The translations under genes and the position numbers were made by a program. This document shows, piece after piece, positions 24,675-29,943 of a DNA stretch of 64,000 nt (position 1 is its first letter; the number at the start of each line of letters is the position of its first letter). A model generated the notes under the pieces. The model was given only the letters and a program-made list of their open reading frames with translations. It searched no databases and was not told the DNA's origin. Origin of the DNA: Rhodobacter sp. SY28-1 (GTDB lineage: Bacteria > Pseudomonadota > Alphaproteobacteria > Rhodobacterales > Rhodobacteraceae); assembly GCF_005222785.1 (NCBI RefSeq), contig NZ_STGH01000001.1, forward strand, positions 1 through 64,000, in the 5' to 3' direction.

Positions 24675-25454
24675 CTAGTCGCGCGCCCAAAGCGCCAGCA
24701 GGATCGACGAGACGCAGAAATACAGCCCGAAGATGCCGAAGGCCGAGACCAGGTAAAGCTGGAAGAAGAACAGTGGCCCGCCCAGCAGGCTGGAAATCAG
24801 CGAGATGACCATGGTCCCAAGGGCCAGGATGGTACCCGCTATGGCCGCCAGCACAACTGAGCCGACAAGTTCTAGCGGAGAGCGGCAGAACAGGAGCGTC
24901 AAGAGACCATGGGTCAGGATCAGCAGCACCAGGTTGGTGGTGAAGATCGGAACCAGGGTCAACCGGGCCGGGTCGATCCGACCAGGATCCACGAGGCTCA
25001 CCAGAAGGCAGAAGACGATCAGGAACAGGTGGACCACGATCGCCGGGAACAGCACCGAGTTCCGGAATAGCAGGAACAGGATCAAGAGAAGTGCCAGTTG
25101 CCCGACTGGCAGGACCAGCCGCATGACCTGGGGATCCAGGTCCATGGTTCGAAAAACGGTATCCGAAGCAACAAGGCTGGCGCGAAGGTCCGCGAGCGTC
25201 CCGGAGAACGACAGTGCAACGCCGACCAGCACAGCTGCCGAGACAAGGAAGGTGAAGACCTGCCAGTGCGCTCCGGCCGTGTCTTGCGGGCCTCTGCCCG
25301 AGGTCAGCGGACCGGAACGCAGCCGTTGTTCGGGCCCTTCCGATGTCGAGATCGGCAGGCGGGTATCGACTTGGCGCACCAGCCGCCAGCACAGGATGAA
25401 GACCAGCGCCACCAGACATTCGTAGACCACGACGGCAATCAGGGTGTTGAGCAC
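24675..25454 (-). CDS. seven-span membrane protein of the putative polysaccharide operon
   Basis: About 259 residues, unrecognised. One span at the N-terminus (residues 1-26) is followed by a polar loop of about 40 residues, then six hydrophobic segments, the last reaching almost to the C-terminus (ALWARD). No catalytic motif is apparent. The long frame upstream to 25883 is antisense-like shadow of the glycosyltransferase. The GTG at 25454 begins 11 bp after the glycosyltransferase stop and is the only start that fits. Position suggests a partner of the synthase, for export, acylation or regulation, but this is inference. Confidence 0.65.
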   Translation of the reverse strand: MLNTLIAVVVYECLVALVFILCWRLVRQVDTRLPISTSEGPEQRLRSGPLTSGRGPQDTAGAHWQVFTFLVSAAVLVGVALSFSGTLADLRASLVASDTVFRTMDLDPQVMRLVLPVGQLALLLILFLLFRNSVLFPAIVVHLFLIVFCLLVSLVDPGRIDPARLTLVPIFTTNLVLLILTHGLLTLLFCRSPLELVGSVVLAAIAGTILALGTMVISLISSLLGGPLFFFQLYLVSAFGIFGLYFCVSSILLALWARD

Positions 25455-25465
25455 CGACGCAGCCC

Positions 25466-26731
25466 CTATGCCGAGCCGCGGAAGCGCTGGGTCTTGTCCC
25501 ACTGCGTCGTGATGCCGAAAAGCTTGTCCTTCAAAAGCTGCAGAACCCCGACATTGCAGGCCAGAAGGCTGGTGAAGGACGACACGAACAGGAAAGGAAC
25601 CGCCGAAAAGGCCCGCCGCTGCCCGTCTGACACGCATCCTGCCGCGATCTGGTAGAAGGGGGCAAAGTTGCCGATGCCGGTAAACAGTGTCAGCGACACT
25701 GTCATGATCGACAGGCTTGCCCAAGTCTCGCCCAGTTGCGTGGGCATTGCCAGCGCGATGACAAGGTTCAAGAGCACGAGACTGGGAACGGTATAGACCA
25801 GCAGGACCAGGGCCGCATCGAGCCGCGCCATCAGCGGCTGGCGGGTCGCGCGCAGCGTTGCGAAGAAATAGCGCCCGAGGCAATCGTTATGCCCGATGGC
25901 CCAGCGCTTGACCTGGCGATAGCGCACCTGCCAGGTCTCGGGGCTCTCCTCATAGCATTCGGCGCCCGCGACATAGGCCACCCGCATGCCCGCGATGAAC
26001 AGCCGGTAGGTCAGGTCGGTATCCTCGGCCAGCGAGATGGTGTTCCAGCCCCCGACCGCCTCCAGCGCCGAGCGGCGAACCGCGCCAGTCGTGCCGCCGA
26101 ACTGCGGCAGAAGCGACATGCGGTGCCGCACTTCCTGGTCGACGACGTAGCCGCCCCGTCGCTCCAGATCCAGAAGCTTGGTCAGCATGTTGGCATTGGC
26201 GTTGTAGGGCACGACGCGGCCCATAGTGGCGCCGACCAGCGGGTCGGCGAAGGGCGCGACAAGACGGCGGATGATCTGGGGCGGTGGCAGGTAGTCGGCA
26301 TCGAAGAAGACCAGGATTTCCGAGGTCGAGCCGTTGATCGCGTCCAGAAGGGCAGCCGGCTTGCCGGGTGCCGCATCCTTTGGCCGGTGAATGACCCGCA
26401 CAAAAGGATGGCGCGCGGCGAAATCATCGGCGATGGCCCCGGTACCGTCCCGGGATCGGTCGTTGATCACGATGATCTCGTACCGGTCGGACGGATAATC
26501 CATCCGGGTCAGGCATTCGAGGCAGCCGTACAGCACCCGCTCTTCATTGTGGGCCGGGACGATCACCGTGACCTTGGGAAGGCTCTTGTCCGATACCAGA
26601 AGCCCTGAAGTCCCGCGCCGACCGAAGTGGAACAGCAAAGTCACCGTCACCTGACGGACTAGGACCATCAGGGCCAGAAGGGTCGTCGTGACGTTCCAGG
26701 CAACCAGGAGGGCGATTGCCGCCCCGGTCAT
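25466..26731 (-). CDS. processive family 2 glycosyltransferase
   Basis: A 421-residue membrane glycosyltransferase. An N-terminal span (about residues 3-35) leads into a GT2 domain: VTVIVPAHNEE, INDRSRDGTG, FFDADYLPP (D-x-D), AEDTDLTYRL (general base) and QVKRWAIGH, the Q-x-x-R-W motif typical of processive synthases such as cellulose, hyaluronan or poly-GlcNAc synthase. Three or more C-terminal spans (TVPSLVLLNLVIALA onward) could form the polymer channel. Its ATG overlaps the stop of the outer-membrane barrel gene (ATGA). The polymer made is unknown; there is no PilZ domain. Confidence 0.88.
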   Translation of the reverse strand: MTGAAIALLVAWNVTTTLLALMVLVRQVTVTLLFHFGRRGTSGLLVSDKSLPKVTVIVPAHNEERVLYGCLECLTRMDYPSDRYEIIVINDRSRDGTGAIADDFAARHPFVRVIHRPKDAAPGKPAALLDAINGSTSEILVFFDADYLPPPQIIRRLVAPFADPLVGATMGRVVPYNANANMLTKLLDLERRGGYVVDQEVRHRMSLLPQFGGTTGAVRRSALEAVGGWNTISLAEDTDLTYRLFIAGMRVAYVAGAECYEESPETWQVRYRQVKRWAIGHNDCLGRYFFATLRATRQPLMARLDAALVLLVYTVPSLVLLNLVIALAMPTQLGETWASLSIMTVSLTLFTGIGNFAPFYQIAAGCVSDGQRRAFSAVPFLFVSSFTSLLACNVGVLQLLKDKLFGITTQWDKTQRFRGSA

Positions 26732-27507
26732 AGGCCGAGTTTGAGACCGATGGAGGCGCCTTCCAGATCGTAGAGGTCGGTGTCCACGAACTCACCGCGT
26801 AGAATGACTTCGGCCTTTTCGGAGAACCGGTAGGACACGAAGGGCTTGAACGCAGTGTAGTCGTTGTTGACCGGGGCCAGCGGCGCCAGGTCATAAGCGA
26901 TCTGGCCGAAGCCGAGCTCTGCGCCAATGTTCAGGCCACTGGGGGTCACCAGCGTCGCAACCGCAGCGACGTCATAGCCCATGTCGGCCGAGCCGCTGTT
27001 GTCGACGATCGCCGCGCTGAGCTGGGTCACGAAATACGAACCATTCGCCATTTCGGGGAAGTACTTCACCACTTCGCCACGCAGGCTGGTGGATTCGATG
27101 TCGCCTTCATAGTTCGACCGGCTCAGCTCGAAATCGTAGATCGTGCTGGCGCCCGCATTGTAGCGATACCCGAGCGCATATTTCCAGTCGGGGGCGGTGC
27201 CGAGATCCGAATTGGAATGGTCTACGACAAAGCGCAGGCTGCCCGATCCGGCCGAGAATTCCGCCCCGAGGCTGATCGAAGTCACCTTCTCTTCGCGGTC
27301 CTGCTTGGTGATGTCCATAAGGATCGCGGTGCCCGAATTCAGGACAAACCGGGAATTGAGGCCGATGTAATCGCGGTCAGAAAAACCGTTCGTCGCGTCG
27401 ATCGAACCATAGGTCAGCTGGACGAACCCCGCGTCCTGCGCGTTCGCTGCAAGCCCGAAGGGCAGAAGTGCGCCAAGAATCAGGGCCTGCTTGATTGTTC
27501 TGCTCAT
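26728..27507 (-). CDS. predicted outer-membrane beta-barrel protein
   Basis: 259 residues. A signal peptide (MSRTIKQALILGALLPFGLA, cleaved near ANAQ) precedes alternating amphipathic strands rich in aromatic girdle residues, such as GFVQLTYGSIDA, YALGYRYNAG and FKPFVSYRFSEKAEVILRGE, and a final strand IGLKLGL. This looks like a roughly 12-strand barrel, similar in style to YaiO or the PgaA barrel. GGGAGAAAAAG lies before the ATG at 27507. It is the first gene of the unit with the processive synthase and would supply an exit pore. Sequence identity to a known exporter is not claimed. Confidence 0.75.
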   Translation of the reverse strand: MSRTIKQALILGALLPFGLAANAQDAGFVQLTYGSIDATNGFSDRDYIGLNSRFVLNSGTAILMDITKQDREEKVTSISLGAEFSAGSGSLRFVVDHSNSDLGTAPDWKYALGYRYNAGASTIYDFELSRSNYEGDIESTSLRGEVVKYFPEMANGSYFVTQLSAAIVDNSGSADMGYDVAAVATLVTPSGLNIGAELGFGQIAYDLAPLAPVNNDYTAFKPFVSYRFSEKAEVILRGEFVDTDLYDLEGASIGLKLGL

Positions 27508-27645
27508 CTTTTTCTCCCGCCGGAAGCGCATCTTTTCGCTGCCACGGATACCCTATTCGCGTTCTGGGAGAAAGGCTCATCGCGCTGGGCAAGTGCCGCT
27601 TTGACGGTCCTATGGCTTTCTTGCATCAAATCCCCCAGCCTATGC

Positions 27646-27786: not shown

Positions 27787-28524
27787 TCAGACCAGCATCC
27801 CGCCGTCGTTGTCGTCGCCGGCCTCTTCCAGAAGCCGGTCGATGTCGGGGACCGTGACGTGGCGATTGCCTTCCAGGCTGATGACACCGTCCCGCTTCAG
27901 CGCGCTGATCTGGCGGCTGACCGTTTCCAGCGTCAGCCCAAGGTAATCCGCCATTTCCTCACGGGTCAGCGGCAGATCGACGGACAGGGCGCCCGAGGCA
28001 CGCCGGTGATGCAGGGCGGCATCGCGCCGCGCGATGATCGAGATCAGCGAGGCGATCTTCTCGCGCGCTGTCTTGCGCCCCAGAAGCAGCATCCACTCGC
28101 GCGCTGCGTCCAGTTCGTCCAGCGTCATTTCCAGCAGACGTTGCGCGACATGCGGCGTTGTCGACATCAGCTCTTCGAACGGCTTCTTGCGGAAGCAGCA
28201 CATGACAAGGTCGGTCGTCGCCGTCACGTCGAAGGCCGCCGTGGGCCGGCCCGGCCGTCCGACAAAATCCGAAGGCAGCAGAAGCCCCACCATCTGGCGG
28301 CGCCCGTCCTCCATCGTCTGCGTCAGCGACGCGATGCCGCTGACCACCGAGCCCACGAACTCCATCCGGTCGCCCGACCAGATGATGGTCTGCCCGGCCT
28401 GGAAGCTGCGGTAGTACTTGATCTGCTCCAGCCGGGACAGTTCGTCGGTGTCACAGCGTGCGCAGACCGCACGGTGACGGATCGGGCATTCTCCGCACTG
28501 AACGTGAACCGAGTGCTCGATCAT
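27787..28524 (-). CDS. fnrL: Crp/Fnr family oxygen-responsive regulator FnrL
   Basis: A 245-residue FNR. The N-terminal cysteines VQCGECPIRHRAVCARC, spaced for a [4Fe-4S] cluster, identify it as an oxygen sensor. A cyclic-nucleotide-like beta-roll follows, and a C-terminal helix-turn-helix (LTREEMADYLGLTLETVSRQISAL) with the E-x-x-S-R recognition residues. Low oxygen stabilises the cluster and dimer, which binds TTGAT-N4-ATCAA sites. The ATG at 28524 fits family length. It is divergent from hemN with a near-consensus box between them, the arrangement known from Rhodobacter. Confidence 0.93.
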   Translation of the reverse strand: MIEHSVHVQCGECPIRHRAVCARCDTDELSRLEQIKYYRSFQAGQTIIWSGDRMEFVGSVVSGIASLTQTMEDGRRQMVGLLLPSDFVGRPGRPTAAFDVTATTDLVMCCFRKKPFEELMSTTPHVAQRLLEMTLDELDAAREWMLLLGRKTAREKIASLISIIARRDAALHHRRASGALSVDLPLTREEMADYLGLTLETVSRQISALKRDGVISLEGNRHVTVPDIDRLLEEAGDDNDGGMLV

Positions 28525-28539
28525 CCTGGCTGCCTCGCG

Positions 28540-28553
28540 TTGATCTGCGTCAA
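28540..28553. promoter_or_regulatory. FNR box between fnrL and hemN
   Basis: TTGAT-CTGC-GTCAA matches the FNR consensus TTGAT-N4-ATCAA at nine of ten positions. It lies 16 bp upstream of the fnrL start and 34 bp upstream of the hemN start, so FnrL could activate hemN and adjust its own expression. Confidence 0.75.
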
Positions 28554-28587
28554 GGAGCCGCCTGCCCCACAACCATATCCTAGACTG

Positions 28588-29943
28588 ATGGAACATGACC
28601 CGCAACTCGCCCGCCTCGGTCTATTCGACGCACGCGTGCCCCGGTACACCTCTTATCCGACGGCGCCGCATTTCGGGCCCGACGTGGGGCCGCGCAACTT
28701 TGCCGCCTGGATCGAGGCGGTGCCCGAATACAGCCAGATCTCGCTTTACCTGCATGTGCCGTTCTGTCGGCGGCTCTGCTGGTTCTGCGCCTGTCGCACG
28801 CAGGGCACCACTTCGGACGAGCCGGTGCGGGCCTATGTGCAGACGCTGAAGGCCGAGCTGGCGCTTCTGCGCGCCCACCTGCCCCGAGGGGTCTCGCTCA
28901 GCCGGTTGCATTGGGGTGGTGGCACGCCGACCCTGCTTTCGGCGGACCTGATTCGCGATCTGGCCAATACGATCCTGACCGTCGCACCGATGGAGGCGGA
29001 TGGCGAGTTCTCGGTCGAGATCGACCCGAACGAGATCGACGACGCGCGGCTTGACGCTCTGGCAGCGGCCGGGATGAACCGAGCCTCGATTGGCGTGCAG
29101 GACTTCGATCCGATGATCCAGAAGGCCATTGGGCGCGAGCAGGCCTATGACCTGACCCGGGATGTCGCTGCCCGGATCCGCGATCGCGGAGTGGCCAGCC
29201 TGAACGCCGACATCCTGTACGGCCTGCCGTTCCAGACCGGACCGCGTATCGCCGACTCCGTCCAGAAGCTGTTGACCCTGTCTCCGGATCGGGTCGCGCT
29301 GTACGGCTATGCCCATGTCCCGTGGATGAGTCGTCGGCAGCAGATGATTCCCTCGGATGCGATGCCCACCCCGGAGGAGCGCCTCTCGCTGTTCGAAACC
29401 GCGCGGCAGTTGTTCCTGTGGGATGGCTATGTCGAGGTCGGGATGGATCACTTCGCCCGGCCCGAAGACGGGATGGCGCGCGCCCTGCGGGCTGGCACGT
29501 TGCGGCGGAACTTCCAGGGCTACACCGACGATCCCGCCCCGGTCCTGATCGGGCTTGGCGCTTCGTCGATCAGCCGCTTTCCGCAAGGATTTGCGCAGAA
29601 TGCCTCGGGCACTGCCGAACACACCAAGGCGATCCGGGCGGGGCAGTTCTCGACCCACAGGGGGCACGCCTTCCGGGGCGAGGATCTGTTGCGCGCGCGA
29701 ATCATCGAGGCGCTGATGTGCGACTTCCAGGTGTCGCGGGCCGAGCTTCTGCAAGCGTTCGAGGTCAGTGCCGACCGGATCGAGACCCTGTTCCAGGCCG
29801 CTGTGGCAGAGTTCGGCGACATGGTGCGGGTGACAGAGGAGGGTCTGCGCATCCCCGATCGCGGCCGCCCCCTCACGCGAATGATCGCCCGCGCCTTCGA
29901 CGCCTATGACAACAGCCGGGCGAAACATTCCTCGGCCATCTGA
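28588..29943 (+). CDS. hemN: oxygen-independent coproporphyrinogen III oxidase
   Basis: A 451-residue radical SAM enzyme. Its cluster motif is C-x3-C-x2-C-x-C (FCRRLCWFCACRTQ), exactly the HemN pattern; GGGTPTLL, SIGVQDF and DILYGLPFQT follow, with a C-terminal HemN domain (GLGASSISRFPQG). It decarboxylates coproporphyrinogen III to protoporphyrinogen IX without oxygen. The ATG at 28588 is the natural start; the frame open for over 1 kb upstream is shadow of fnrL and the barrel gene. Expected to be induced anaerobically by FnrL. It converges on a GT4 gene 6 bp away. Confidence 0.94.
   Translation: MEHDPQLARLGLFDARVPRYTSYPTAPHFGPDVGPRNFAAWIEAVPEYSQISLYLHVPFCRRLCWFCACRTQGTTSDEPVRAYVQTLKAELALLRAHLPRGVSLSRLHWGGGTPTLLSADLIRDLANTILTVAPMEADGEFSVEIDPNEIDDARLDALAAAGMNRASIGVQDFDPMIQKAIGREQAYDLTRDVAARIRDRGVASLNADILYGLPFQTGPRIADSVQKLLTLSPDRVALYGYAHVPWMSRRQQMIPSDAMPTPEERLSLFETARQLFLWDGYVEVGMDHFARPEDGMARALRAGTLRRNFQGYTDDPAPVLIGLGASSISRFPQGFAQNASGTAEHTKAIRAGQFSTHRGHAFRGEDLLRARIIEALMCDFQVSRAELLQAFEVSADRIETLFQAAVAEFGDMVRVTEEGLRIPDRGRPLTRMIARAFDAYDNSRAKHSSAI

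Follow-up and report, generated by a model that had tools for sequence, protein, structure and literature searches.

A barrel, glycosyltransferase and membrane-protein unit co-inherited with WecB in Tabrizicola, a candidate exopolysaccharide machine

Described synthase systems and the locus compared

The PNAG (pgaABCD) and cellulose (bcs) systems combine a processive GT2 glycosyltransferase with an outer-membrane protein. In Listeria monocytogenes, PssC is reported as the synthase of the Pss polysaccharide (PMC11439720, PMC4125290). PMC11439720 describes Pss as a chain of beta-1,4-ManNAc bearing galactose branches, and PMC4125290 describes PssE as a degenerate GGDEF receptor. E. coli encodes a YaiO-family barrel and a GT2 (YaiP) at one locus; among the literature matches listed for YaiO, most are E. 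coli detection papers. Clusters on E. fergusonii plasmid pRHB18-C04_2 and on Cupriavidus sp. P-10 pMTS1 encode a GT2, WecB, a YaiO barrel and a polytopic protein beside the barrel. We found no described function for these clusters, and the one in E. fergusonii gave no megablast match among the E. coli genomes searched.

The window analysed here is a stretch of 64,000 nucleotides from Rhodobacter sp. SY28-1 (contig NZ_STGH01000001.1), and it contains three genes on the minus strand that form a compact unit. The first (26728-27507) encodes an outer-membrane barrel of 259 aa with a signal-peptide-like N-terminal stretch, the second (25466-26731) a GT2 of 421 aa, and the third (24675-25454) a seven-helix membrane protein of 259 aa. 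The barrel stop overlaps the GT2 start in the sequence ATGA, and the membrane gene begins with GTG 11 bp past the GT2 stop, so that by coordinates the layout of the original prediction is exact. In all three orthologs within the genus, barrel and GT2 likewise overlap by ATGA and the membrane gene starts with GTG.

The GT2 shows the marks of processive GT2 synthases: the DxD, ED and QxxRW motifs (DAD at 144, EDTD at 236 and QVKRW at 273) and membrane segments on either side of them (hydropathy gives hydrophobic segments at both ends). It is a putative processive polysaccharide synthase. At E<=1, Pfam and NCBIfam give nothing for the barrel and a single sub-threshold Pfam line (E 0.42) for the membrane protein; neither protein has a credible sequence match in the PDB. 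The hydropathy of the membrane protein is compatible with seven helices, as drawn in an AlphaFold model with a mean pLDDT of only 50; at mean pLDDT values of 37 and 50, the quality of the structure models is too low for further use.

Unlike the PNAG and cellulose systems, the unit is without a deacetylase, TPR porin, PgaD, PilZ or BcsB. The genes themselves and a Pfam scan bear out the earlier remark that the unit lacks a deacetylase, a TPR protein, PilZ and a c-di-GMP domain. Against the PNAG synthase model PgaC (TIGR03937) the window GT2 scores 120.5 bits where 422.3 are needed, and there are no pgaA, pgaB or pgaD neighbours; against the cellulose synthase model CelA (TIGR03030) it scores 46.5 bits (cut-off 699.1), with no PilZ in the Pfam scan. 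Pga and cellulose had been offered as the comparison for this locus, and they turn out not to be the nearest one, since the closest relatives are clusters with a YaiO-family barrel and WecB.

The Listeria locus, which by eye and with PMC4125290 has the gene layout of pssA-E, resembles the unit in its GT2: PssC is 31% identical over 87% of the query and shares a side of the GT2 tree with the window protein. It differs in belonging to a Gram-positive organism with no outer membrane and in encoding extra proteins, and the unit contains no PssD- or PssE-like gene. The composition of Pss is not easily transferred to the unit, because the authors of PMC4125290 call composition prediction from PssC similarity unreliable. 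The E. coli locus shares with the unit the pairing of a YaiO-family barrel and a GT2. In contrast to the window GT2, YaiP (a weak match at 24%, E 7e-7) sits on a long branch in the opposite part of the tree, and unlike the WecB-linked clusters, the 12 kb read at its locus contain no WecB.

Distribution of the unit and of WecB

Within the genus, the membrane protein occurs in four of 32 genomes and a full-length barrel in the same four (a barrel match of only 81 residues in G166, E=5.2e-4, was left out of the count). GT2 presence was read from the carrier loci, where the gene lies between the other two. The carriers include Tabrizicola flagellatus (L003) and the MAG Rhodobacterales bacterium 32-66-9 (L002), and all four hold the unit at the same site, after fnrL and on the same strand. 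Identity to the window is 88-92% for the GT2, 68-76% for the barrel and 59-71% for the membrane protein.

Outside the genus the unit is sparse. In family draws, sampled at close to one genome per genus, nothing but the window genome matched the membrane protein (1/149), the barrel (1/295) or the GT2 at E<=1e-60 (1/295). An order draw of 292 genomes gave GT2 matches at E<=1e-30 in 16; the strong ones were confined to the window genome, G179 and G350, and the others were 30-36% identical and mostly lay within much longer frames. The distant genome G350 encodes barrel, GT2 and membrane protein in the order of the window (38%, 58% and 24% identity), and a GT2 at E<=1e-50 is present in one of the five genomes of its genus. 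Its membrane protein is related to that of the window (Z 9.7, 0/1000 shuffles that kept the hydrophobic pattern). In a class draw, the GT2 profile at E<=1e-60 matched two of 385 genomes, the window genome and G591, in which a barrel-like gene and the GT2 are followed by a bactofilin-like gene (by eye) in the place of the membrane gene. The original prediction had staked the unit on its three genes occurring together, and they do so in the four carriers and in G350.

Three further readings were set aside. For plasmid carriage, no plasmid matched the membrane protein at E<=0.1. For phage carriage, 33 phage records matched the GT2, all at <60% identity, and the five matches listed were at 30-31%. 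For a recent foreign origin as judged by composition, the GC content of the unit (0.58-0.66) lies near that of its flanks (0.59-0.68) in 500-base windows.

The window genome encodes one WecB above the cut-off of the model for non-hydrolysing UDP-GlcNAc 2-epimerase (TIGR00236, 210.15 bits), which scores 375.9 bits and lies on another contig (G000:C2:831653-832882). Orthologs at 81-87% identity are present in exactly the four genomes of the 32 that have the unit. No WecB match at E<=1e-20 was found in 27 of the 28 non-carriers, and the non-carrier G155 has a relative at 28% identity; WecB is thus no general need in the genus. In the window genome wecB stands alone between ccoN-like and serralysin/RTX-like genes (L080, 8651-12415; by eye), and a ccoN match lies beside wecB in the three other carriers.

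On a genus tree of fnrL and hemN (29 of the 32 genomes, three being left out as they had no fnrL match), the carriers make up four of a five-genome group (92/95). The fifth genome, G151, pairs with T. flagellatus as its sister (100/100), and both the unit and WecB are missing from G151. A single carrier clade is rejected (p-AU 0.0003), which implies that the unit changed state two or more times on the tree, and WecB presence tracks the unit at all 29 tips, following both changes. Two changes are too few for significance on their own, and because the marker genes adjoin the unit, local exchange could mislead this tree. The intergenic stretches of four non-carriers (G151, G161, G167 and G170) gave only short chance-level matches to the unit, so that scars cannot tell gain from loss.

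Elsewhere the association is one of physical linkage. In G350 a WecB gene (366.1 bits against TIGR00236) lies directly upstream of the barrel, GT2 and membrane genes, in E. fergusonii WecB overlaps the YaiO gene, and in both Cupriavidus loci it is upstream of the GT2. The co-occurrence in the genus and the position of WecB in G350 are our main new result; with the linkage in E. fergusonii and Cupriavidus added, we consider it probable that WecB goes with the unit. Since an unlinked WecB accompanies the three genes, they probably do not constitute the complete system. The earlier idea of an envelope-spanning polysaccharide machine is supported as far as the pairing of a processive-type GT2 with a barrel is concerned, and needs correction as to its completeness.

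On balance, the unit is probably a minimal synthase-dependent exopolysaccharide machine that is fed UDP-ManNAc by the unlinked WecB. This reading draws on the co-inheritance of WecB, its linkage elsewhere, the GT2 clade described below and the kinship with PssC. It is weakened by G591, in which no WecB match was found within the 18 kb fetched around the GT2, by the unlinked position of WecB in the window genome and by the failure of the window barrel to match the YaiO model. The first two of these points also fit the same machine making a GlcNAc-based polymer, or one of another sugar, with WecB serving another pathway of the same genomes, and so does the finding that PgaC_IcaA outscores the other curated models on the GT2, at a score far below its cut-off. 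Set against the 27 non-carriers in which WecB found no match, and against the linked WecB genes of G350, E. fergusonii and the two Cupriavidus loci, a polymer of that kind seems unlikely to us. The steps that we infer for the UDP-ManNAc-fed machine, from donor sugar and polymerase activity to pore function and the part played by the seven-helix protein, are these: WecB would turn UDP-GlcNAc into UDP-ManNAc, the GT2 would polymerise the sugar and, with the assistance of the seven-helix protein, move the chain through a membrane channel of its own, and the YaiO-type barrel would carry the chain across the outer membrane. The polymer may well contain N-acetylmannosamine.

Kinship of the glycosyltransferase, barrel and membrane protein

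In a GT2 tree of 34 rows, the window GT2 and its three orthologs fall in a clade of nine (support 100/99) that also takes in G350, G591, E. fergusonii and two Cupriavidus rows. The window side of a 98/95 split also holds Listeria PssC, Enterococcus, A. baumannii, E. coli BcsA and three others; beyond the split lie PgaC, NodC, YaiP and most long Rhodobacteraceae rows. Deep placement is unsure, as several rows, YaiP, NodC, BcsA and L058 among them, have long branches. A tblastn search of plasmids with the GT2 ranked E. fergusonii (45%) and Cupriavidus (44%) ahead of Listeria (31%). The A. baumannii record (L075, 1971-7086) has a PssC-side GT2, after it a gene annotated as BcsB and, on the other strand, one annotated as WecB, which makes it a further case of a GT2 with an epimerase nearby.

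A further possibility is that the GT2 makes a short glycan or glycolipid and no secreted polymer, with the barrel having another surface role. The unit has no gene for a periplasmic scaffold or regulator, and the mycofactocin glycosyltransferase model MftF scores 110.7 bits, near PgaC, both of which would suit such a product. Yet the GT2 has the QxxRW, DxD and ED motifs, the lipid transferase models HpnI (56.7 bits) and HpnB (50.7 bits) score well under PgaC, and a barrel accompanies the GT2 in all loci read for the nine clade rows, and we judge this alternative to be distinctly improbable. Clustering with non-processive lipid transferases had been named as the finding that would speak against the unit; the model scores point the other way, in a comparison that stays with the models, the tree containing no lipid transferases.

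The barrel can be placed through its orthologs. The YaiO model TIGR04390 (cut-off 32 bits) matches the G350 barrel over its full length at 59.1 bits, and the second model, PF19413, just falls short on it (23.3 bits against a cut-off of 23.9). In G179 the ortholog shares 76% identity with the window barrel and reaches 31.8 bits with TIGR04390, 0.2 under the cut-off, and that of T. flagellatus 23.1 bits, whereas the L002 ortholog has no match and the window barrel itself none at E<=10. Judged by these orthologs, we regard the window barrel, whose own sequence does not match the model, as a putative diverged member of the YaiO family by descent.

For the seven-helix protein, no direct homology was found between the window protein and the E. 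fergusonii or Cupriavidus polytopic proteins. The score of the G350 membrane protein with the E. fergusonii protein was reached in 4/1000 and 2/1000 shuffles in the two directions, and 36 control comparisons (nine protein stretches by four queries) gave Z at most 1.5. A link between the window protein and the E. fergusonii polytopic protein is thereby suggested, through G350 only.

The E. fergusonii and Cupriavidus clusters, whose GT2s are 43-45% identical to that of the window, differ from the unit in their extra genes: bactofilin-like ones, ones that look hydrolase-like by eye, and genes for an acyltransferase or a deacetylase-like protein, the Cupriavidus matches lying below the Pfam cut-offs. 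The acyltransferase in E. fergusonii and the weak deacetylase-like match in Cupriavidus (18.8 bits, cut-off 23.1) raise the alternative that the same machine makes a modified or mixed polymer, for example with ManNAcA or acyl groups supplied by unlinked genes. UDP-ManNAc is the precursor of UDP-ManNAcA, which would suit such a polymer; however, no such enzyme was seen beside the unit or, by eye, in the 19 kb around wecB, and we consider this alternative improbable.

Separately, bactofilin-like genes are present in related GT2 clusters of E. fergusonii (annotated; L061, 2554-9179), G591 (by eye; L070, 7342-10385) and Cupriavidus (22.2 bits against a cut-off of 27.9; L062, 3837-13151). In these clusters a putative polymer-forming scaffold would thus be linked with polysaccharide synthesis.

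Returning to a ManNAc polymer, WecB, a YaiO-family pore, the GT2 clade and a polytopic partner could together represent an undescribed class of synthase-dependent system, found in Gram-negative alpha-, beta- and gammaproteobacteria, that secretes poly-N-acetylmannosamine. We put this forward tentatively. In such a class Tabrizicola and G350 would have the bare core, as their cluster encodes neither a deacetylase nor a TPR scaffold nor a c-di-GMP domain. The literature searched (titles and abstract openings, with few subscription papers) gave no description of a WecB-YaiO-GT2 system of this kind. If the proposal is true, a likely ManNAc polymer joins the synthase-dependent systems of Gram-negative bacteria and the YaiO barrel family gains a concrete role as a polysaccharide pore. 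With three linked genes and one epimerase the system would be small enough for full testing, and the absence of a scaffold gene from the cluster raises the question of how the polymer crosses the periplasm.

Upstream blocks and the fnrL neighbourhood

Upstream of the barrel gene, two blocks on the minus strand are conserved in the four carriers, one at 27553-27576 with the consensus GCCTTTCTCCCGGAACGCGAATGG and a second at 27611-27629, which reads TTGATGCAAGAAAGCCATA in the window. No known binding site was recognised in either. At two mismatches the GCCTTTCTCCCGGAACGCGAATGG consensus has one match in the window (0.00 expected). The first 19 bases of this block recur with one mismatch upstream of wecB in G350 (L059, 12396-12414), at the head of the cluster; in a shuffle control of the G350 locus, any block match at <=3 mismatches arose in 7/200. 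The block was not found in the wecB region of the window genome or in the G591 region. Its recurrence in G350 would fit an ancestral arrangement in which a single control site preceded wecB, the barrel gene, the GT2 gene and the membrane gene, in that order.

The position beside fnrL, mentioned in the original prediction, looks incidental, as an fnrL match occurs in 29 genus genomes and 25 of these do not carry the unit. Control of the unit by FnrL was rejected on the same count, and also because no FNR-box-like site with <=1 mismatch occurs in 24.6-27.8 kb. In the non-carriers G151, G161, G167 and G170, the four with both neighbours of the site in view, 163-1170 bp separate fnrL from a glutamate-synthase-like gene. 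This second neighbour was not detected in G179 (L013, 8201-8397), and in the MAG (L002, 2724-3399 and 6787-6996) it is a short remnant, while the match to fnrL runs across two frames. In the window, an FNR-box-like site with one mismatch is found at 28540-28553, between fnrL and hemN. In the fnrL frame (27787-28605), 27 residues precede a Met that begins MIEHSVHVQCGEC; stops lie inside the match in four of the 29 genus fnrL matches, and the true fnrL start may therefore be the Met of MIEHSVHVQCGEC.
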